Below, piece after piece: positions 5,315 through 27,833 of a DNA stretch of 29,361 nt. Each line of letters starts with the position of its first letter. The stretch's first letter is position 1. The notes beneath the pieces were generated by a model. It worked only from the letters and a program-made list of their open reading frames with translations. It was not told the origin of the DNA and made no database searches. The position numbers and the translations under genes were made by a program. The stretch is from a virus, in the IMG/VR virus record IMGVR_UViG_3300042485_000982, positions 1 to 29,361 of that record; one strand, 5' to 3'.

Positions 5315-5667
5315 AAAAACCATTAATGATTGTGCTACTCGCTTTCGGGATGAAGGCCAGTGCACAGCAGGAGCAATCCTACGAACAGATGAGTAAAATG
5401 CAACTCACGAAAATCTATCTTGAACAAGTGCAACAGCTTGCATTGGCTGTGCCTTACTCATCATTCACAATGACTGATACTACAGGAGCAGTCGATATGC
5501 CTTCCAGCAAGTATCTAAAGAACAAGCGTGATGCAGTCAGCAAGATAACGGCTAACTTCAACAAGACTGTCAATGTCGAGTTGTATGAGATCATACCTTA
5601 TGCTGATAAGGCTCAGATTATTCAAGCAATATTATTCTTAGAAAACATCAATTCAGTTATCAAATGA
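5311..5667 (+). CDS. Secreted hypothetical protein, first gene of lysis region
   Basis: The frame is open from 5278, but the ATG at 5311 forms an ATGA overlap and gives a clean signal peptide: MKKPLMIVLLAFGMKASAQQ, with likely cleavage after ASA. The mature part (about 98 residues) is helical, with no catalytic motif. The product is probably exported to the periplasm. Position directly before the spanin-like pair suggests a lysis or envelope role, but the family is not recognised. Confidence 0.6.
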   Translation: MKKPLMIVLLAFGMKASAQQEQSYEQMSKMQLTKIYLEQVQQLALAVPYSSFTMTDTTGAVDMPSSKYLKNKRDAVSKITANFNKTVNVELYEIIPYADKAQIIQAILFLENINSVIK

Positions 5668-5999
5668 AAAAGTGGTTATACATTACAATGGCTTTCGCAT
5701 TCTTGTTCATTGTGCTTATCATAGCAAAATGCAATCAGGATGCAGAGGTAGTCATCGAGGATGATTACAAGCCTAAAAAAGAGCAGACTATTGAAGTGGC
5801 TAAACGCAATACACTTGATAGCATCGCACTTGAGAGAGCAAAAGATTCAATTGAAATATTGAATAATATGATTCAAAACAATGTTCAAAAAGTTAAATAC
5901 ATAAAAGTAAAATCAAATGAAAAAGCTAATACTGTTAGTACCTGGTCTTCTGATCAGTTCAATAGCTATCTGTCAGACCGCTACAAAGACCGCAAGTGA
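5664..5999 (+). CDS. Membrane-anchored periplasmic protein, spanin-like (i-spanin layout)
   Basis: 111 residues. One N-terminal membrane segment (about 4-22: WLYITMAFAFLFIVLIIAKC) is followed by a charged helical region (IALERAKDSIEILNNMIQNNVQKV) with coiled-coil character, and a C-terminal 'WSSDQFNSYLSDRYKD'. This is the topology of an Rz-type inner-membrane spanin: N-in, coiled coil in the periplasm. Its last 83 bases overlap the start of the next gene in another frame, as in Rz/Rz1 pairs. Confidence in the membrane topology is good, in the spanin role moderate. Confidence 0.6.
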   Translation: MKKWLYITMAFAFLFIVLIIAKCNQDAEVVIEDDYKPKKEQTIEVAKRNTLDSIALERAKDSIEILNNMIQNNVQKVKYIKVKSNEKANTVSTWSSDQFNSYLSDRYKDRK

Positions 6000-6360
6000 T
6001 CAAGATAGTACCGTAGTAATGAGCAAGAAGCTTGTTGGCTACATGATTGAGGACCTTATCAAATCCGATGCTGATAAACAAGCAATTGTTTTACTTGAGC
6101 AAAACTTAACTTTCAAGGATGGAATTATCGCACAGAAGGATGATATAATCGGCAGACACGATGCTCAGATGAAGGCAAAGAACGACCTTATCCAGGAGTA
6201 CGAGAGTAACGAGAAGGATATGACTATTGCAATGGATAAGCTGAAGTCTGACTTAAATAAGAAGAAACAAGGTAATATGTTTTGGAAGTCAGCAGCAGCA
6301 GGCCTACTTGTCGGACTCGTAGTGAATCACTATGCATGGAAGTACGGAGGTAAGCAATGA
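5917..6360 (+). CDS. Exported coiled-coil protein with C-terminal membrane anchor (u-spanin-like)
   Basis: 147 residues. The N-terminus (MKKLILLVPGLLISSIAICQ) is a signal peptide with a Cys at 19 or so that makes a poor lipobox (Ile at -1). The body (about 45-125) is a long charged coiled coil (IVLLEQNLTFKDGIIAQKDD and on). Near the C-terminus a membrane segment (FWKSAAAGLLVGLVVNHY) is followed by a basic tail (AWKYGGKQ). A lipid- or signal-anchored N-terminus plus a C-terminal inner-membrane helix is the layout of unimolecular spanins such as T1 gp11, of similar length. It begins inside the previous gene and ends in an ATGA overlap with the next. The role is inferred. Confidence 0.55.
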   Translation: MKKLILLVPGLLISSIAICQTATKTASDQDSTVVMSKKLVGYMIEDLIKSDADKQAIVLLEQNLTFKDGIIAQKDDIIGRHDAQMKAKNDLIQEYESNEKDMTIAMDKLKSDLNKKKQGNMFWKSAAAGLLVGLVVNHYAWKYGGKQ

Positions 6361-11000: not shown

Positions 11001-11648
11001 ATGCTTATTTCACTAATTCATCCGAGCTTGGGCAGACCTGTTCAGGCTCGGAAGTGTTATGATCACTGGATGAAAACTGCTTCAGGAGATCATGAGTATG
11101 AGTGGATAGTTAGCTTATCGATTAAGGATGCATCGCTTGAGCAGTACCATCAGACCTTTACTAATTCAAATGCTGTGCTTATTACAGCCAACACAAGGAA
11201 TATGGTTGAGGCATCGAATGAAGGTGCTAAGGTTAGTGCTGGTCAGATAATGATCCTGGTATCGGATGATATGTGGAGTCCTCAACTTTGGGATGAAAGA
11301 ATCCTCCACAAGTTCGAGATGATAGATGGACCAGGACTGCTTCAAGTGGATGATGGCATAACTTCCAAGAAAATGACCATTCCAATAATGAATCGAGAAG
11401 CTTATGCGAAGTTGGGATACATGTATCATCCTGACTACATCAGTATGTTTGCTGATGATGATTTGCGAGCAACGGCCTTGAGTAATGGCATGTACTACAA
11501 CGGAACGGATATACTGATTGAGCATAGGCACTATTCAGTGAATAAGTCAAAATACGATAAGACCTACCAATCTGAGAATAGCAGAACAGCGTGGAGGATA
11601 GGCGAGAAGATATTCTTTGAACGAGCAAAACATAAGTTCCCAATATGA
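11001..11648 (+). CDS. GT-A-fold glycosyltransferase (family 2-like)
   Basis: 215 residues. The N-terminus 'MLISLIHPSLGRPVQARKCYDHW' starts a Rossmann-like strand typical of GT2 enzymes; 'IMILVSDDMWSPQLWDERI' (about 87-105) carries the DxD-type metal/sugar-nucleotide motif, and 'FADDDLRATALSNGMYY' (about 151-167) is a second acidic motif at the acceptor side. Phage enzymes of this kind modify phage DNA, virion proteins or host surface sugars. It has no signal or membrane segment, so it acts in the cytoplasm. It overlaps the next glycosyltransferase by ATGA, so the two are probably made together just before the packaging genes. Confidence 0.7.
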   Translation: MLISLIHPSLGRPVQARKCYDHWMKTASGDHEYEWIVSLSIKDASLEQYHQTFTNSNAVLITANTRNMVEASNEGAKVSAGQIMILVSDDMWSPQLWDERILHKFEMIDGPGLLQVDDGITSKKMTIPIMNREAYAKLGYMYHPDYISMFADDDLRATALSNGMYYNGTDILIEHRHYSVNKSKYDKTYQSENSRTAWRIGEKIFFERAKHKFPI

Positions 11649-12217
11649 AGAAACTGTGGACAATTGCAGTGTTAACTATACCAAGTAGGAAGCCATTCCT
11701 GGATAGGTTAATGGCTCGATTGAAACCACAGCTTAATGATCAGGTGCGAGTCAAGGTATTCAATCATCCAACGAATAGCATCGGCAACAAGAGGCAACGA
11801 GCTCTTGATGATTGTAAGACTACTTACATCAGCTTTATTGATGATGATGATCTTGTGCCTTCTCATTATGTAAACGCTATCTTAAGCAAGATGAAGTATC
11901 TGCCTGATGGCATTGGCTTTCGTGGAATCATCACGAGCAATAACATCAAGCCTGTTGAGTTCGTGCATCGTGCTGGGTTAAGATATATCGACAAAGTATT
12001 TAGGTCATCGGATTGTTATATCTTCCATCGACCACTTAACCATCTTAATCCTGTTAAGGTAGAGATTGCAAGGAAGATAGGCTACAAGGATTCTAACTTT
12101 GAAGAGGACAAAGATTATGCACTGCGATTAGCTGAGAGTGGTTTGATTACTGATGATGTATTCATAGATGAATTCTTATACTTCTATCAGTATAGGAGTA
12201 AAAATGTAAAAGTGTAG
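11645..12217 (+). CDS. GT-A-fold glycosyltransferase (family 2-like)
   Basis: 190 residues. Key features are an N-terminal strand 'LWTIAVLTIPSRKPFLDRLMARL', 'NSIGNKRQRALDDCKTTYISFIDDDDLVPSHYV' with the DDDD metal motif at about 66-70 behind the 'G.KRQ.al' helix of GT2 enzymes, and a later acidic 'FEEDKDYALRLAESGL' (about 152-167). No membrane anchor is present. The pair with the previous gene suggests sequential sugar transfer to one acceptor. The acceptor is unknown; a virion protein is possible given a third enzyme (25063) in the structural module. Confidence 0.75.
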   Translation: MKKLWTIAVLTIPSRKPFLDRLMARLKPQLNDQVRVKVFNHPTNSIGNKRQRALDDCKTTYISFIDDDDLVPSHYVNAILSKMKYLPDGIGFRGIITSNNIKPVEFVHRAGLRYIDKVFRSSDCYIFHRPLNHLNPVKVEIARKIGYKDSNFEEDKDYALRLAESGLITDDVFIDEFLYFYQYRSKNVKV

Positions 12218-15911: not shown

Positions 15912-17417
15912 ATGAGCTACTCACTAACTGACTATAGTGCTACGGAAGTAGAATTGAATGATGGCTTGCGTAGTTATTATTACAAGAAATGCTATTGCTC
16001 AGTAGAGTTGCAAGGTGAGTACATTGTATTTACATCTCACAAGGTTGAGAACAATGCTTACCGCCAATCATGGACCATTGCATATACTGACTTCACTACT
16101 CCAACAGGATCAGCGGCCACAGTACTTGCAGCCATTAAGACTATCATCGAGAACTATGCAGGAGGAGGTACTCCAACTCCAACAGGTTACTATGGAATGT
16201 GGCAAGACAATGTTACGCAAACAGCTCCTTCAAGTAATGTAGGATTAGCAATGATTTTTAGAGAAACTGACTTATCTAATGGAGTTTCAGTTGTTACTAA
16301 TGGCACTAACCTTACTCGAATAACCTTTGCTAACACTGGTATCTATAATCTTCAGTTTAGTTCGCAGTTTCAGAATACAGACAATGCGTTACACGATGTA
16401 ACTATTTGGTTGAGATTGAATGGAAGTGATGTAGCAGGCTCTTCAGGATTTGTATCTGTACCACAGAGAAAGAATCCATCTGAGCCTGGTCATATAATTA
16501 CAAGTTGGAACTATCTTCTTGATGTAGTTGCAGGTCAGTATTATGAGTTATACTGGAGTACTACTAATCATACATTCGTATCAATGGAGTATTATCCTGC
16601 AGGCAGTCCTCCTCCATCAACAGCATCAGTAATCTTAACTGTTACTCAGCAAAGTGGAATCATGGCAGGCACAGGTATCACTGCTATAAATTCATTAACA
16701 GGCTCTGCTCAGACATTAGGAGTAGGTACAAGTGGAACTGACTTTGCAGTTAGTTCTTCAGGCACAGCTCATACACTAAATCTTCCAACAGCATCAGCAA
16801 CTAATAGAGGAGCTTTATCATCATCTGATTACACTACATTCAATAATGCTACAATTGATAGAAGAAGCGGTAACTATTATCGCAAGAGTCAGCGTTGGTA
16901 TGTGCCAAGTGATAACACAAACACTCTAACAGCTACCAATCACTCGACTCCTTCAGTATTCTTAGTGCCATTACCTATTCACAAGACTATTGTTATTGAT
17001 CAGATAGCAGTGGAGGTTACATCAGCAGGAGCGGTAGGTAGTACATTAAGGTTTGGAATTTACAATGGAGATGCTACTACGGTAGTGCCTACTACTTTAG
17101 TTGTGGATAGCGGAGATATATCTGCTGCTACGATTGGAGTAAAGACATTCACTCCAGGTACTGCAATCACATTAACTCCTGGCTTATACTTCACAGCGTT
17201 TACTACATCAAGTGCATCGGCTCATGGTATTAGAAGTTTGACTACTACTAACTTTGCTCAAGTGATTGGATTGACTGCTGCAGGAGGTACATCTTTGGGA
17301 ACTTATATTAATGGAACAAGAGCAGCTTATGGAGCATTACCTGCTAATGCATCTTCACTAACTGCATTGAATCCAACAATCGGAAACATTTACGCATTAT
17401 TTCATAGGATACAATGA
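15912..17417 (+). CDS. Tail fibre-like protein
   Basis: 501 residues in three parts. About 1-90 is a small N-terminal unit ending 'GSAATVLAAIKTIIENYAGGG', which looks like an attachment domain followed by a Gly linker. About 100-240 reads as a C1q/TNF-like jelly roll ('ITFANTGIYNLQFSSQFQNTDN', 'DVTIWLRLNGSDVAGSSGFV', 'YYELYWSTTNHTFVSMEYY'). About 255-310 has fibre-shaft phrases ('GTGITAINSLTGSAQTLGVGTSGTDF', 'TNRGALSSSDYTTFNNA'). The last 190 residues are a beta-rich head (SVFLVPLPIHKTIVIDQIAVEV...) that likely binds a surface sugar or protein. It is probably the receptor-binding fibre or part of it. ATGA coupling to the next gene. Confidence 0.65.
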   Translation: MSYSLTDYSATEVELNDGLRSYYYKKCYCSVELQGEYIVFTSHKVENNAYRQSWTIAYTDFTTPTGSAATVLAAIKTIIENYAGGGTPTPTGYYGMWQDNVTQTAPSSNVGLAMIFRETDLSNGVSVVTNGTNLTRITFANTGIYNLQFSSQFQNTDNALHDVTIWLRLNGSDVAGSSGFVSVPQRKNPSEPGHIITSWNYLLDVVAGQYYELYWSTTNHTFVSMEYYPAGSPPPSTASVILTVTQQSGIMAGTGITAINSLTGSAQTLGVGTSGTDFAVSSSGTAHTLNLPTASATNRGALSSSDYTTFNNATIDRRSGNYYRKSQRWYVPSDNTNTLTATNHSTPSVFLVPLPIHKTIVIDQIAVEVTSAGAVGSTLRFGIYNGDATTVVPTTLVVDSGDISAATIGVKTFTPGTAITLTPGLYFTAFTTSSASAHGIRSLTTTNFAQVIGLTAAGGTSLGTYINGTRAAYGALPANASSLTALNPTIGNIYALFHRIQ

Positions 17418-17710
17418 GAACTGAAAACTACGGCCTTGATGCTGATGGAAACACTGTCCTTCTTTCTGTGGAGGATGATGGCCTATTACCTGAGGCTAAT
17501 TCAGGTTATGCTGATTTATCTTTAGGCAGAGTAACCGTTACTACTCCTTATGCTGGTAAGTCAGTAATATTAACGAGGAATCAAGATAACACTACTGCTA
17601 TCGGCAATGTGTATATCTATGCTCCTAACACAATAGAAGGAGTTAGTTTTGAAATCAGAAGTACAAATGCTAACGATAATGGAACGGTCTTCTGGCAAAT
17701 TGTAGAATAA
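17414..17710 (+). CDS. Small beta-rich virion-associated protein
   Basis: 98 residues with strands 'GYADLSLGRVTVTTPYAGKSVILTRNQDNTTAIGNVYIYAP' and a C-terminal 'NGTVFWQIVE'. The layout of a compact single beta domain, joined to the fibre-like gene by ATGA and to the secreted protein by TAATG, suggests a fibre accessory or cap. The family is not recognised. Confidence 0.5.
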   Translation: MRTENYGLDADGNTVLLSVEDDGLLPEANSGYADLSLGRVTVTTPYAGKSVILTRNQDNTTAIGNVYIYAPNTIEGVSFEIRSTNANDNGTVFWQIVE

Positions 17711-18894
17711 TGAAAAACACACTTACATTTATTGCAATCATCCTATTCACTTTAGGATTAACTCACAGCGTTATTAGTTATCCAGAAGGTGCTCCTTCAG
17801 GCTATGCTTATGATAAGGCATCTAACTATCGCTCATGTGCTTATTCAGGATGTCATTCAGGAACAGCAGTCTTTGCAGATACAACTATTGCGAAGATCAC
17901 GAGTAACATTCCAAGCACTGGCTATATTCCTGGACAGACTTACACATTCACTGCAACGGTAACTAAACCTGGATATTCACGCTTTGGATTCCAAGCTTCT
18001 CCACAGGATAGCTTAGGTAACTACAAAGGAACAATGATAGTTACTAACACAACTAAGACTAAGATAACAGGCACGAAATACATCACTCATACGCAGAGTG
18101 GGAATACTCAATCATCATGGTCATGGAATTGGGTAGCTCCTGCGTTTGGATCAGGACAAGTCAAGATGAGCGGTGCTCTGATGGCTGCTAATAATAACGG
18201 AGGTACATCAGGAGATAGCACTTATAAGGTTTCAGTATTGATCAATGAGTGCTTCAAAGCTCCATCTAATATAGTGGCAACTCCTAAAGGTACATCAGTA
18301 ACTATTACATGGAGTAAGAATAATTGTGCTAATGGTTACAAGATTATGTATCGTGCAGTGGGTGCATCGACTTGGAAGTATATCACTCTGCCTGATACGG
18401 CAAGCAAGATAATCTATGCATTGACTCCTTTCACTAATTACGAGTATGCAATAGCATCCATTTCAAATACTACGCTTTCTACATATACTACAACGAAATA
18501 CTTCACAACTTTATGTCAGTGTGATCTTCCTATTATGGTAGTGGATAGCATTGGAAGCACAGCACTTAAGTTCTTGTGGGTAGATGATAACTGCGGACTA
18601 AGATATAAGATTCAATATCGTAAGTCAGGAGTAACTTTTTGGACTAATAAAATAGTAGGAGATACAACTGATAATTGGATTGCTACCAATTTAAAGGCGA
18701 ACACTAACTATGAATGGAGATACAGAAGAGAATGCAACGCTACAGGCACTTATGGAAGTGTTTACAGCACTATCTACTCAACAACTACTGCTCCATCCAT
18801 TCAAGTACCTGACTTAATTAAAATCACTGTAATAGGAGATATGAAGATATTCCAATACTCCGATGGATCAGTTAAAAAAGTGATTGAGAGATAA
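17710..18894 (+). CDS. Secreted Reeler/choice-of-anchor V-like protein with FN3 repeats
   Basis: 394 residues. A signal peptide (MKNTLTFIAIILFTLGLTHS) is followed by 'GYAYDKASNYRSCAYSGCHSG' with C43-x4-C48-H49, then 'YIPGQTYTFTATVTKPGYSRFGFQA', 'YITHTQSG', 'WSWNWVAPAFGSGQVKMSGALMAANNNGGTSGDSTY' to about 175. This is the order of the Reeler-like/choice-of-anchor V domain of Bacteroidota exported proteins. Two FN3-like domains follow (about 183-270 and 271-362), each with strand patterns such as 'SVTITWSKNNCANGYKIMYRA'. A short C-terminal tail (LIKITVIGDMKIFQYSDG) looks like the remnant of a sorting domain. Phage tail proteins do not normally carry a signal peptide, so this looks acquired from a host. 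It may be displayed on the host or become part of the virion; neither is shown. Confidence 0.65.
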   Translation: MKNTLTFIAIILFTLGLTHSVISYPEGAPSGYAYDKASNYRSCAYSGCHSGTAVFADTTIAKITSNIPSTGYIPGQTYTFTATVTKPGYSRFGFQASPQDSLGNYKGTMIVTNTTKTKITGTKYITHTQSGNTQSSWSWNWVAPAFGSGQVKMSGALMAANNNGGTSGDSTYKVSVLINECFKAPSNIVATPKGTSVTITWSKNNCANGYKIMYRAVGASTWKYITLPDTASKIIYALTPFTNYEYAIASISNTTLSTYTTTKYFTTLCQCDLPIMVVDSIGSTALKFLWVDDNCGLRYKIQYRKSGVTFWTNKIVGDTTDNWIATNLKANTNYEWRYRRECNATGTYGSVYSTIYSTTTAPSIQVPDLIKITVIGDMKIFQYSDGSVKKVIER

Positions 18895-19031
18895 TGGCAA
18901 AGGCGATTAAGGTTGTATCTTTATACAGGAAGAAAGGCAAGGTCAGCAGACCAGGAAAGCATTCCAAAAAAAGGAGCAGTAAGCTCAAAACAAGTAAGCA
19001 TTATGTGAAACTCTCAAGAGGTCAAGGTTAA
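18894..19031 (+). CDS. Very basic 45-residue peptide upstream of the tape measure
   Basis: The frame starts with ATG at 18894, overlapping the previous stop, and ends with TAA at 19029-19031, overlapping the tape-measure ATG (TAATG). It encodes 12 Lys and 4 Arg in 45 residues, no Asp or Glu, and ends 'KHYVKLSRGQG'. I recall similar short Lys/Arg-rich proteins ending 'K.y.k..RGQG' in Bacteroidota phages. Perfect fit on both sides supports translation. A role in DNA or RNA contact, or as a tail component, cannot be distinguished. Confidence 0.6.
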   Translation: MAKAIKVVSLYRKKGKVSRPGKHSKKRSSKLKTSKHYVKLSRGQG

Positions 19032-23442: not shown

Positions 23443-25066
23443 TTTTATACCTAACCAACCAATATTATTTGAAGATCCTTTATTTGCAGGTCAGCCTTGT
23501 TTAAACAATGATACGAGAGCATATGCACAGCTTGCACAAGCTGGAGATACTACTTGCATTCAGTTTATGAATGAGCCTGTATCAACAGCTTATTCATGTG
23601 ATATGACTACATTTAATGATGTAGTAAATAATGGAAGCTTTGCATCTGACTTAAGCAATTGGGATGAGTATGATTTTGCAACAGGAACTAATACAGGAGC
23701 ACCTACTACATGGACTTGGACAGTTAATGGAGCAACATCAGATCCTACTGCATCACAGATTGGATTAATACAATCTATTCCTGGTGCTATTAGTAACATC
23801 TTTTTAATTAGTTTAGAATTTACTTATGACAATGGAGGAGATTTCAAGATTGGATTTGGTAATGCCACAACAAATAGTTGGAACTGGGTTAACTTATTAA
23901 ACAATTTTGAAACTAATATTGATGGCAGAAGATGTTTGATAGTTAGTTCTTATATCAATTTAGATTTCGCTTTTTATTGTAGTACTTCAGCAGTTACAAT
24001 TAAGAATTTAGTAATTAGAGATGTAACAGCAGGACAATGCGTAGTGCCTAATGGCAGTGTTAATGCACATTGGACTTATGTCGAGTCAGTAAACGGATGG
24101 CAAAAGATAGATGGCTCAGCAGCTACTGCAAATCCTTTAACGATATTCAACAATATTTTTAGTGGAACTGACTATAAGTTAAGTTACAAAGTAATGAATA
24201 TGCCAGAAGATACAATTGCTTACATGGAGATTCAAGATTACACTAATGCTACATTAGCAAAGACTTATTTTAATGGAGAATTTGCGGAATACTTTACATA
24301 TACAGGACCAATAGCACAGCCTTATATTTTAGCTAATCCTGAAGCACAGAATGGAGTTATCTATGACATCAAGTTTGAAGAGATGTGCTATGATCAGCGC
24401 ATATCAGTTACTTATCCTGATGGCTCTCCAGTTTCAATTTGGTATGATTCAAGTAGTGCTACTAATCCAATCACATACTATGCAGATAGAATGATATGGT
24501 GCTTTGATTGGGAAACTTTAGAGAGTTCTGAAACACCAGGAGCTCCATTAAGTAGTGGTTGCTACACTATCACTGTTGATGATCAGTGCACAGGTATCAC
24601 TACGCAATCTTATACGATTGTAAATTATAATGCAACAGGATCTCATGACTGCTCGGTAATGGTACAAGGAACTAATCAAGGTTATGCTTTTGGATTTTTC
24701 TTTAACGCTATAGGATCAAATGTAACTTTCCGATTAAGACAGCGATTGCGATTGCTTCAATTCAATCCAATGTATCCTGTGAAAACAGAGCAGTACTTAT
24801 ATTCAGATGGAACAATGAGCAGACCATTTGCTCAGAGTGGTAAGGTAAGAACTGCATGGTTTGACTATGTTGATGAGCCAACACATGATGTTATCAGACT
24901 TCAATTATTATCAGATACATTATTAATAGGCACTCAACCTTTCTTCTGCATTGCAGAGGATTACGAGCCTGAATGGGGCGAGAATGGTAAGTATAACCTT
25001 GCTCAATCGAAAGTGGCTCTAATGGCACAGAATGAGCCTACATTGTATAACAAAAATTGTATATGA
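23432..25066 (+). CDS. Tail tip-associated protein with carbohydrate-binding-like domains
   Basis: 544 residues, overlapping the previous gene by 11 bases. At about 67-200 'NNGSFASDLSNWDEYDF...FLISLEFTYDNGGDFKIGFGN' reads as a galactose-binding-like jelly roll, the sort that opens with 'NGsF...l.gW'. A second similar unit follows (about 205-320). Then 'ISVTYPDGSPVSIWYD' and 'SGCYTITVDDQC' look like beta-sandwich units, and the end (about 400-540, 'VRTAWFDYVDEPTHDVIRLQL...') is a separate closing domain. The likely role is a baseplate or receptor-binding component. It is placed by position and composition. Confidence 0.55.
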   Translation: MAISFIPNQPILFEDPLFAGQPCLNNDTRAYAQLAQAGDTTCIQFMNEPVSTAYSCDMTTFNDVVNNGSFASDLSNWDEYDFATGTNTGAPTTWTWTVNGATSDPTASQIGLIQSIPGAISNIFLISLEFTYDNGGDFKIGFGNATTNSWNWVNLLNNFETNIDGRRCLIVSSYINLDFAFYCSTSAVTIKNLVIRDVTAGQCVVPNGSVNAHWTYVESVNGWQKIDGSAATANPLTIFNNIFSGTDYKLSYKVMNMPEDTIAYMEIQDYTNATLAKTYFNGEFAEYFTYTGPIAQPYILANPEAQNGVIYDIKFEEMCYDQRISVTYPDGSPVSIWYDSSSATNPITYYADRMIWCFDWETLESSETPGAPLSSGCYTITVDDQCTGITTQSYTIVNYNATGSHDCSVMVQGTNQGYAFGFFFNAIGSNVTFRLRQRLRLLQFNPMYPVKTEQYLYSDGTMSRPFAQSGKVRTAWFDYVDEPTHDVIRLQLLSDTLLIGTQPFFCIAEDYEPEWGENGKYNLAQSKVALMAQNEPTLYNKNCI

Positions 25067-25890
25067 GAGGAATAGTAACAATAGCAATGAAGCATCCATT
25101 GTATGGCAAGTATGCCTACAATCTTGCTTTATCAGCTAAGTCAGCGGATATGAATGTGCAAGTAGCAGTGATTGCTGATGCAGAAGGATTAAGACATCTT
25201 CATCCTGGACAAAGAATGATATTTGATTACATCATCGAGCCTAAGTCAGAGAAGCCATTAGTGAATAAGTTCTACCTTGCGGAGTTAAGTCCATTTGAAG
25301 AAACATTATTCGTAGATGCAGACATGATATTTAGTCCGATGGCTGACTTCAACGAGTTTTGGAGGTCTATGAGTACGGTCCAATGGACAATGGCTAATCG
25401 TGGCAAGGATGATATAGTGAAAGGAATTAGCGAATGGACCACAAAAGAAGATATTGCAGAGGCTTATGGAGAAGTAGAGCAGTGGTATGATTTATCATCT
25501 GAATGGATTTACTTCAAGAAAAATGACTTAAGTTATACTATCTTTGCTAATGCTGAGATGTACTACGATGATAACAAGTTAAAGGTAAGAGAATTTGCTG
25601 GAGATAGACCTGATGAGCCTTACTTTAATTTATCACTGATTAGCGTGAATCATCAGCCACATCTTGCACCATATCAGCCAACCTATTGGCAGCCTGCGAT
25701 GAAAGGATTTCCTGGACTCATGGCTATTAAAAAAGGATGGATGGCTTTCAGTGTAGGAGGTAAATTGATTCCTCAACAACAAATGCAAGTTTATGATGAG
25801 CTTGCGAAAAACGCATCCTTCAGGATGAACATGCCGAGCATGAAAATTGCTCAAAAGATAAACCAACTAAGTGAAAGAAAAGTAATTTAA
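25063..25890 (+). CDS. Glycosyltransferase, GT-A fold (GT8-like)
   Basis: 275 residues, from the ATG at 25063 that overlaps the previous stop in ATGA; a TTG at 25057 would add two residues. 'GIVTIAMKHPLYGKYAYNLALSAKSAD' starts the fold, 'KPLVNKFYLAELSPFEETLFVDADMIFSP' carries the 'DADM' metal/sugar-nucleotide motif (about 89-92), and a later 'DRPDEPYFNLSL' and 'HQPHLAPYQPTYW' form the acceptor side. This pattern is of GT8-type or related enzymes. It lies between tail-tip and portal genes, so it may modify virion proteins. It is the third such enzyme of the window. Confidence 0.7.
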   Translation: MRGIVTIAMKHPLYGKYAYNLALSAKSADMNVQVAVIADAEGLRHLHPGQRMIFDYIIEPKSEKPLVNKFYLAELSPFEETLFVDADMIFSPMADFNEFWRSMSTVQWTMANRGKDDIVKGISEWTTKEDIAEAYGEVEQWYDLSSEWIYFKKNDLSYTIFANAEMYYDDNKLKVREFAGDRPDEPYFNLSLISVNHQPHLAPYQPTYWQPAMKGFPGLMAIKKGWMAFSVGGKLIPQQQMQVYDELAKNASFRMNMPSMKIAQKINQLSERKVI

Positions 25891-27833
25891 TGGCAGCAGT
25901 AACACCAGCATTCCTTGAGCCGTATTTAAGTTCTAAATACAGACATTCATACTACCATGATGCAGTAGAATTAGCTGAAGAGTTAGCTATCCATGCGAAT
26001 GGAGAATTTCCTGATGATCTCATATCAGAACGCAGACCAGCGGAGAGTGAAGAAATTAAAAACTATCGTAAAAAGATATTCACTCCAATCACTAAGCCAG
26101 TGTTCACGAAAGTGTACAACAGCTTGATGAAGATCCGTAAATCTTCTGATTGGATGATAAGCTTCCCAACTAATATTCCTGCATTCATTGCGGAGGATGA
26201 AGCACCTGAGAAGTACTTAATGAAGGATTTGCCTCGTAATGGTAGCATCACTAATTGGATGTTTAGCGTGGCATTCAAGCCATATTTGATAGATGCTAAT
26301 GCTGTGGTATTAACTATGCCTATCAATTATGACATCCAAGAGAATGAGTATTTTAAACCATATCCAAAAATATTTACCTCTGCACAGGTCATCGACTATA
26401 GAATCAATGAATTCTATTTGTTGCAAGACGCTGAAATGTTCAGTTATGAAGAGGATGATTATTATTATACAAACGGCAGAAGATTCTATCTTATCCAGCC
26501 TGATATCTTTCAGGTATTTGAGGAGAAGAATGGAAAAGTATCTGAAGTATTCCAATTCCCGAATGTCTTAGGTTATATTCCTATCCGACATATGAACGGA
26601 ATGGTAGTAGAACAAGGCAACCATTGCACACTATATGAATCTCGCATCAGTGGAATCGTGCCAATGCTTAATGAAGCAGTGCGTGAGTACAGTGATTTAC
26701 AAGCAGAGATTGTTCAGCACATTCACTCAACTATGTGGGCCATCCAGCCTCAGCAGTGCGGTAGATGTAAAGGAGTAGGAGAGATTCCAAGAGAGAACTC
26801 AGCACCTATATCATGTCCTTCATGTAGTGGTAAAGGTATCTTACCTCTTAATCCTTTCGAGCATGTAATCATGCCAATGCCAAAAGCTGGAGAAAGCACA
26901 GTTCCTACTCCTCCGATTGGCTATGTTCAGAAGCAGACTGAGATTGCTCGACTACAGGAAGAAAGAATTAGACAGCATATTTACGATGCATTAAGTGCTA
27001 TCAATATGGAGTTCTTAGCTGAAACTCCAATCGCTCAATCAGGAGTTGCTAAGCAAGTAGATAGAGAAGAACTTTACAGCTTTGTTCATTCAATTGCAGA
27101 AGATGTAGTGAGAATTATGGATGAAGTAAGTTATGATGTACTTGCTTGGAGGCACTATGCACAAAATGTAGATGTGAATACTTTACTTCCTTACATTCCA
27201 GTTCCTGAGCGTTATGATATGCTTAGCGGAAAGGTATTGGTAGATGAACTTACTTCTATGGTACAAGCTAAAGTTGATCCTGCAATTATCAATGCAGCAC
27301 AGATTGAATTAGCAGATAAGAAATTTAACGAGTCAAAAGTAAAAGACCTTGTGATATTAAAACTTAAACTTGATCCTTTCGCAGGAGTACCTGAAGAAAA
27401 CATCAGCTTATTAAAAACATTTGATGCAATTAACAAAAGTGATTTAGTAGTACATGCTAACATCAGTAAGTTTGTAACTCGTGCTATGAATGAAATTGAC
27501 TCTTTTGCTGATATGACTTATACTGAGCAAGAGAAAATCATGCAACAATATGCAACTGAATTAACAGCTCCTAAAGTAGTAACAGGTGGAGTGCCAGTGC
27601 AAGGTATGGAAGTTCCTGATTCAGTAGATCAGAAGAGATTAGATGCTCAAGCTACATTGAAAGGAACAGTAGGAGGTGTGCAAGGTATTCTTGAGATTCA
27701 GAAGTCAGTAGCTCAAGGAATCACAGATAGAGATGCAGCGATTGCATTGTTAATTGAGATTTATGGCTTCACTGAAGAGCAAGCGGTTAATGTAGTAGGA
27801 ACTCCAAAAGCAATACCTCCAACAGGATTATAA
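25890..27833 (+). CDS. Portal protein with inserted DnaJ-type zinc motif
   Basis: 647 residues. Overall pattern (N-terminal helical clip 'YHDAVELAEELAIHANGEFPDD', 'SLMKIRKSSDW', beta-rich middle with 'YIPIRHMNGMVV', then a long helix 'LQAEIVQHIHSTMW' and, after residue 340, 'QKQTEIARLQEERIRQHIYDALSAI') is that of a Bacteroidota-phage portal. Residues 290-314 insert 'CGRCKGVGE...CPSCSGKG' with Cys290, 293, 309 and 312, a DnaJ-like CxxCxGxG pair. The long C-terminal helical tail (about 540-640) resembles portal barrels or extensions. It stands directly before MuF, as portals do. The portal forms the DNA channel and binds the terminase. Identity rests on context and layout. Confidence 0.7.
   Translation: MAAVTPAFLEPYLSSKYRHSYYHDAVELAEELAIHANGEFPDDLISERRPAESEEIKNYRKKIFTPITKPVFTKVYNSLMKIRKSSDWMISFPTNIPAFIAEDEAPEKYLMKDLPRNGSITNWMFSVAFKPYLIDANAVVLTMPINYDIQENEYFKPYPKIFTSAQVIDYRINEFYLLQDAEMFSYEEDDYYYTNGRRFYLIQPDIFQVFEEKNGKVSEVFQFPNVLGYIPIRHMNGMVVEQGNHCTLYESRISGIVPMLNEAVREYSDLQAEIVQHIHSTMWAIQPQQCGRCKGVGEIPRENSAPISCPSCSGKGILPLNPFEHVIMPMPKAGESTVPTPPIGYVQKQTEIARLQEERIRQHIYDALSAINMEFLAETPIAQSGVAKQVDREELYSFVHSIAEDVVRIMDEVSYDVLAWRHYAQNVDVNTLLPYIPVPERYDMLSGKVLVDELTSMVQAKVDPAIINAAQIELADKKFNESKVKDLVILKLKLDPFAGVPEENISLLKTFDAINKSDLVVHANISKFVTRAMNEIDSFADMTYTEQEKIMQQYATELTAPKVVTGGVPVQGMEVPDSVDQKRLDAQATLKGTVGGVQGILEIQKSVAQGITDRDAAIALLIEIYGFTEEQAVNVVGTPKAIPPTGL

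Follow-up and report, generated by a model that had tools for sequence, protein, structure and literature searches.

A Reeler-fold protein with a putative haem c motif, apparently captured from Bacteroidota, is shared by unrelated phages

The window analysed here is the whole 29,361 nt stretch of virus record IMGVR_UViG_3300042485_000982. On its plus strand, at positions 17710–18894, lies a gene for a 394 aa protein, identified as a phage choice-of-anchor V/Reeler-fold protein by its match to profile NF041895, its predicted fold and its purifying selection. The gene overlaps each of its neighbours by one base, exactly as the earlier note had described. The upstream neighbour (17414–17710, plus strand, 98 aa) is of interest as context only; it is a stand-alone K1-lyase C-terminal domain of the tail-spike type (PF24146, E 2.6e-13), present as a separate gene after a fibre-like gene. 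The downstream neighbour (18894–19031, plus strand) is a basic 45 aa ORF. Two unrelated phage types have a basic ORF of 45–50 aa directly 3′ of the gene; this one recurs beside the homologues of viral contigs L002 (11185–11322, 100% identity) and L004 (11182–11334, 60% identity), and in the window and L004 it has the same one-base overlap with the gene. Scanning the window region for promoters and terminators yielded no more sites than shuffled sequences did, and no match to Rfam was found.

Residues 1–23 (17710–17778, plus strand) form a putative signal peptide, with cleavage probably occurring near VIS/YP, as judged by reading the sequence and by the hydropathy peak. The same kind of N-terminus, Lys2 followed by a strongly hydrophobic stretch, is present in all seven phage copies of the protein, where the strongest 12 residues have a hydropathy of 2.5–3.0 at the N-terminus compared to no more than 1.6 in the mature part. 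The signal peptide first proposed for the window protein is thus predicted throughout the phage set, and we infer that the protein is exported by Sec.

Residues 24–180 (17779–18249, plus strand) make up the Reeler-like choice-of-anchor V domain. NF041895 (NCBIfam, cut-off 42) is matched by residues 14–173 with 82.6 bits (E 3e-23), and the phage copies score 78–84 bits, while the Pfam Reeler profile gave no match to the window protein at E values up to 1. The AlphaFold2 model of residues 24–182 is essentially all-beta (pLDDT 94.2, pTM 0.89). A full-length Foldseek search was swamped by FN3 matches, so it was redone with the Reeler-like domain only, and the best eight PDB matches were then all to F-spondin Reeler (2zot/3coo/2zou; E 7e-8 to 3e-6), with 2zot/3coo at the top (E 7e-8, TM by target 0.70–0.72). 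The Reeler-like domain of the earlier note is therefore recovered by profile as well as by structure prediction, the check that had been suggested for it. The domain carries a C43-AYSG-C48-H49 motif (17836–17856, plus strand), with all three residues at the positions first given for them, which is a putative haem c attachment site, and H127 (18088–18090, plus strand), a candidate distal haem ligand.

Two FN3 repeats follow, at about residues 184–268 (18259–18513) and 275–360 (18532–18789), both on the plus strand and both anticipated from the letters alone. PF00041 detects two stretches in the window protein at 24.9 bits, just under its gathering score of 25, which is exceeded in the homologues of L003, L004 and L006 (25.1, 25.5 and 28.2), and the repeats of the window protein also match FN3 chains in the PDB. 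The protein ends in a short C-terminal tail (18790–18891, plus strand), where cellular relatives have a T9SS sorting domain. One of these, L138, has a TIGR04183 sorting domain at E 2e-12, and the C-termini of many other close cellular relatives look similar by eye; neither TIGR04183 nor PF18962 was found in the phage copies at E values up to 10. A degenerate T9SS-like C-terminus suspected by eye in L005 and L006 was unsupported by the same search. The phage copies appear to have shed the T9SS sorting tail of their cellular relatives and to have acquired FN3 repeats. As the NF041895 model covers the domain only, the missing tail lowers the analogy with the cellular proteins but not domain membership. 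Surface display seems less likely given the absence of the sorting domain seen in L138, and the phage protein would be expected to be periplasmic or held by a partner.

A scan of 2.9 million viral contigs using several independent patterns located the gene in six contigs besides the window. No credible homologue was found in a collection of 50,697 phage records (tblastn, E up to 10; one match at E 7), and none among 72,556 plasmids (E up to 1). The phage copies share 66–93% protein identity, but their carriers otherwise share almost nothing and span at least three unrelated phage backgrounds, some of them crAss-like. The window and L002 represent one phage type, in which the gene is flanked by tail fibre-like genes on one side and a tape-measure-like gene on the other. 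In L003 the homologue follows a helicase gene in the replication module, and in L004, a 69.6-kb contig, it adjoins a capsid virion protein gene (phrog_1645). In L005, L006 and L015 it occupies its own short transcription unit, with a terminator, upstream of the head genes. The portal protein of L005 shows 32–34% identity to those of crAss-like phages, and by this protein, examined in L005, the three contigs are classed as crAss-like.

A further member of the last group, L169, lacks the homologue, and the cytochrome gene that precedes it in the other three (see below) runs directly into the same terminator, leaving an exact empty site. In this record (960–1320) the cytochrome gene is kept, with its frame broken, and the choice-of-anchor V gene is missing. 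The earlier note had reasoned that the tight overlaps left no room for independent insertion, a view contradicted by the empty site and by the junctions between gene and neighbours, which vary from phage to phage. The tight junctions in the window are merely how that copy is set in, and the gene is a mobile accessory gene.

Other features of the window were noted in passing. The portal-like protein encoded at 25890–27833 has a zinc-binding cysteine cluster of the DnaJ or anti-TRAP type at about residues 279–319. Genes within the structural region (11001–12217 and 25057–25890) look glycosyltransferase-like by eye, the one at 25057–25890 having no Pfam, NCBIfam or PHROG match. Overlapping genes for a small membrane protein and a small secreted protein, spanin-like in arrangement, occur in three unrelated phages (window 5664–5999 and 5917–6360; L003 4198–4945; L015 1361–2099).

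A maximum-likelihood tree of 102 cellular and seven phage choice-of-anchor V domains gathers the phage copies, on a long stem, into a single clade (100/100; 100% of bootstrap trees) nested among cellular Bacteroidota sequences. A first scan of cellular contigs with phage-derived patterns gave no match, and the cellular homologues were then fetched with a hand-written, family-like probe. The nearest cellular proteins, such as L138 (56% identity over 147 aa), also carry a CX4CH motif. Another close relative, L139 (G409 C8:169723-173132), is a cellular locus at which three choice-of-anchor V genes lie in tandem. In the order to which genome G013 belongs, a genome reached via a Bacteroidota locus whose close homologues are from Chitinophagaceae, the family is common (173 of 299 genomes); across the phylum it is rarer (32 of 395), and a Chitinophagales host is suspected from this frequency only. 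The gene is nested within cellular sequences, optional (absent from L169) and set in a phage context, as is expected of auxiliary genes. The host-like character ascribed to the protein in the earlier note is upheld by this search of phage and host genomes, and the gene appears to have been captured from a Bacteroidota bacterium and to be passed now among unrelated phages. L006 shares its neighbours with L005 and L015, yet it branches separately in the phage clade, a pattern consistent with exchange among phages. The DNA of the signal peptide is 93% identical between the window (17710–17778) and L005 (2475–2543), compared to 72% in the next domain, a mosaic patch between unrelated phages.

The reading frame is intact in all seven phage copies, and the Reeler domain is under strong purifying selection, with dN/dS of about 0.06–0.14 over large synonymous distances. 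The second FN3 repeat behaves differently; it has been exchanged for other types between phage lineages, and its dN reaches about 0.5 between types, compared to 0.04–0.16 in the Reeler domain.

If the C43-x4-C48-H49 motif is functionally important, then it might be expected to be conserved throughout the family. C43, C48 and H49 are invariant in 102 of 102 cellular relatives and 7 of 7 phage copies, together with a few glycines, one tryptophan and one aspartate, which makes C-Xn-C-H a family-wide trait rather than a phage peculiarity. The spacing between the cysteines varies, being 2 in 54, 4 in 41, 3 in three, 5 in two and 6 in two of the 102 cellular sequences, a tally ranked by the phage profile that is less biased but pools loci from both searches; the family-like probe contained CTSCH, which biases a motif tally made from it towards CXXCH. 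The second cysteine and the histidine are always adjacent, and CX4CH is the commonest form in the cellular sequences nearest the phage copies. Among the cellular relatives, 77% have His at the H127 position and 19% have Gln, making this residue the obvious candidate for a distal ligand. Cytochrome f provides a precedent for haem c on a beta-sandwich. No demonstration of haem binding was found for any member of the NF041895 family, and the choice-of-anchor V domain is named in no paper of the literature searched. In the archaeal cytochrome MmcA, CXXCH, CXXXCH and CXXXXCH all bear covalent haem by mass spectrometry (PMC11024163), and CXXXXCH is present in cytochrome c3 (PMC10454114). Since the motif is invariant and such spacings are carried by MmcA and cytochrome c3, a haem site at C43-x4-C48-H49 is a reasonable proposal.

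Directly upstream of the homologue in L005 (2138–2467), L006 (57–374) and L015 (7108–7425) is a gene for a lipobox protein of 105–109 aa, with the sequence DIKPIISKNC-xx-CH (a CXXCH motif) and a conserved MPP. Pfam cytochrome matches to it are weak only, and by its pattern it is probably a small His/Met cytochrome c. When the three phage proteins are aligned with seven cellular cytochromes, the invariant positions are limited to the lipobox Cys, C-Xn-CH, MP, one Trp and one Gly. A profile built from the three phage cytochromes alone picked out, in 0.83 Mb of sequence, 13 ORFs neighbouring cellular choice-of-anchor V genes, compared to none in 0.40 Mb of control stretches from family-carrying genomes. 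At least two of cytochrome, YceI and DUF5777 occur at 11 cellular loci out of a non-redundant set of 137; the loci themselves supplied the seeds for the YceI and DUF5777 profiles, and the cytochrome count is therefore the only independent one. Redox neighbours, a cytochrome of this kind often accompanied by YceI and DUF5777, lie within the fetched flanks of only about 10% of the sampled cellular homologues, and some cellular operons add genes for a cupredoxin with a T9SS tail and a Mo-cofactor oxidoreductase. No cytochrome gene was found in the available sequence of the window, L003 or L004. The family-wide motif with its variable spacing, the adjoining cytochrome c in three phages and the cellular redox neighbourhoods all strengthen the idea, first raised from the window alone, that C43-x4-C48-H49 is a variant haem site.

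The best explanation of these observations is an exported haem-c redox protein that is used during infection, as this brings together the motif, the family setting and the pairing with a phage cytochrome; these phages would thereby provide the infected cell with a piece of an extracytoplasmic electron-transfer chain. Following its capture from a Bacteroidota host, the gene would have become an accessory gene that moves between unrelated phages. The protein would leave the cytoplasm by Sec, and a c-type haem would be attached to C43-x4-C48-H49 in the periplasm by the cytochrome c maturation machinery of the host. It may then act as a small electron carrier, or as a docking partner of a membrane-bound (lipoprotein) cytochrome c, which would be phage-encoded in the crAss-like phages and the host's own in the others. 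The FN3 repeats, in place of a T9SS tail, might confine the protein to the periplasm or tether it to a partner. A likely benefit would be that extracytoplasmic electron flow is kept or diverted while the host is converted. Haem attachment and the redox role are read from sequence patterns and gene context, and our confidence in this explanation is about evenly balanced, because no haem binding has been demonstrated in the family in the literature found and the window has no cytochrome gene. A point against it is that phage proteins with an adhesive or structural role typically carry FN3 repeats as well.

Chief among the rivals is a role as an exported adhesin or receptor mask. The Reeler and FN3 domains would then attach to a receptor or glycan at the surface, and either block superinfection or help released virions to stick. 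Both domains are frequent in adhesive proteins, and the swapping of the second FN3 repeat next to a conserved first domain is as expected of a variable target-binding part. However, what is conserved is the Reeler domain with its C-Xn-CH motif and not the variable FN3, the phage protein has neither T9SS sorting domain nor lipobox with which to reach the surface, and the cytochrome neighbours are left unexplained, so that we regard this function as rather unlikely. Somewhat less probable again is that the domain binds metal or haem for trafficking or scavenging, or simply forms a C43–C48 disulfide, serving envelope protection or iron and copper supply without electron transfer. A Cys-Cys-His set could bind metal, and the cupredoxin and YceI neighbours of the cellular genes fit metal or lipophilic-cofactor handling, but a Cys-Cys spacing of 2–6 with Cys and His always adjacent is what haem c sites show, and would be uncommon in a fixed metal site or disulfide.

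A tail function, as the gene order in the window had originally suggested, fares worse. FN3-bearing tail proteins are common, and in the window and L002 the gene does sit between tail fibre-like and tape measure genes; a virion component that is exported and later assembled into the tail is nevertheless quite improbable, as the gene lies outside tail modules in L003, L005, L006 and L015, is missing from L169, a close relative of the last three, and encodes a signal peptide that is unexpected in a part assembled in the cytoplasm. With four different contexts and an empty site, no conserved tail position exists and the tail-module reading was rejected. Neutral passenger DNA is the least credible alternative, and hardly so at all. 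The rarity of the gene, with six copies besides the window in a search of 2.9 million viral contigs, would suit it, but it is contradicted by the intact frames and by the selection on the Reeler domain.

The exported haem-c redox protein can be extended, more tentatively and with somewhat less than even confidence, to a movable module common to unrelated Bacteroidota phages, including crAss-like phages, in which a lipoprotein cytochrome c and a Reeler-fold haem-c protein, representing a new structural class of c-type cytochrome, sustain an envelope redox chain during infection. Were this so, the manipulation of extracytoplasmic electron transfer in the host, which the literature found describes mainly for photosynthesis and respiration genes of marine viruses, would extend to phages of heterotrophic Bacteroidota, and haem c binding would become a biochemical role for a large and apparently unstudied family of secreted proteins in Bacteroidota and Acidobacteriota.

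Compared to known systems, the phage proteins share with the cellular NF041895 proteins (Bacteroidota, Acidobacteriota and Poribacteria) the domain, the signal peptide and the invariant C-Xn-CH, but they stand apart in the tree as a clade on a long branch, have no T9SS tail and bear two FN3 repeats. The eukaryotic Reeler of F-spondin shares the predicted fold of the phage domain at only about 15% identity and with no Pfam Reeler sequence match. The phage-borne cytochrome resembles Bacteroidota lipoprotein cytochromes c encoded beside choice-of-anchor V genes (L037, L064, L019, L020, L082, L094 and others), which have the same lipobox Cys, C-Xn-CH, MP, W and G; these are 21–33% identical to the L005 protein, and several belong to larger operons with YceI and DUF5777. 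The literature searched yielded no report of a Reeler-type or choice-of-anchor V phage protein, nor of crAss-like phages encoding a c-type cytochrome. Viruses are reported to carry genes for NADH dehydrogenase and cbb3 oxidase (PMC3474794), and cyanophages to carry electron-transfer genes (PMC11480375), and such auxiliary electron-transport genes are likewise host-derived, optional cargo. Host-derived viral electron transport genes are therefore known in general, and the Reeler/choice-of-anchor V version is, by the literature searched, new among them.
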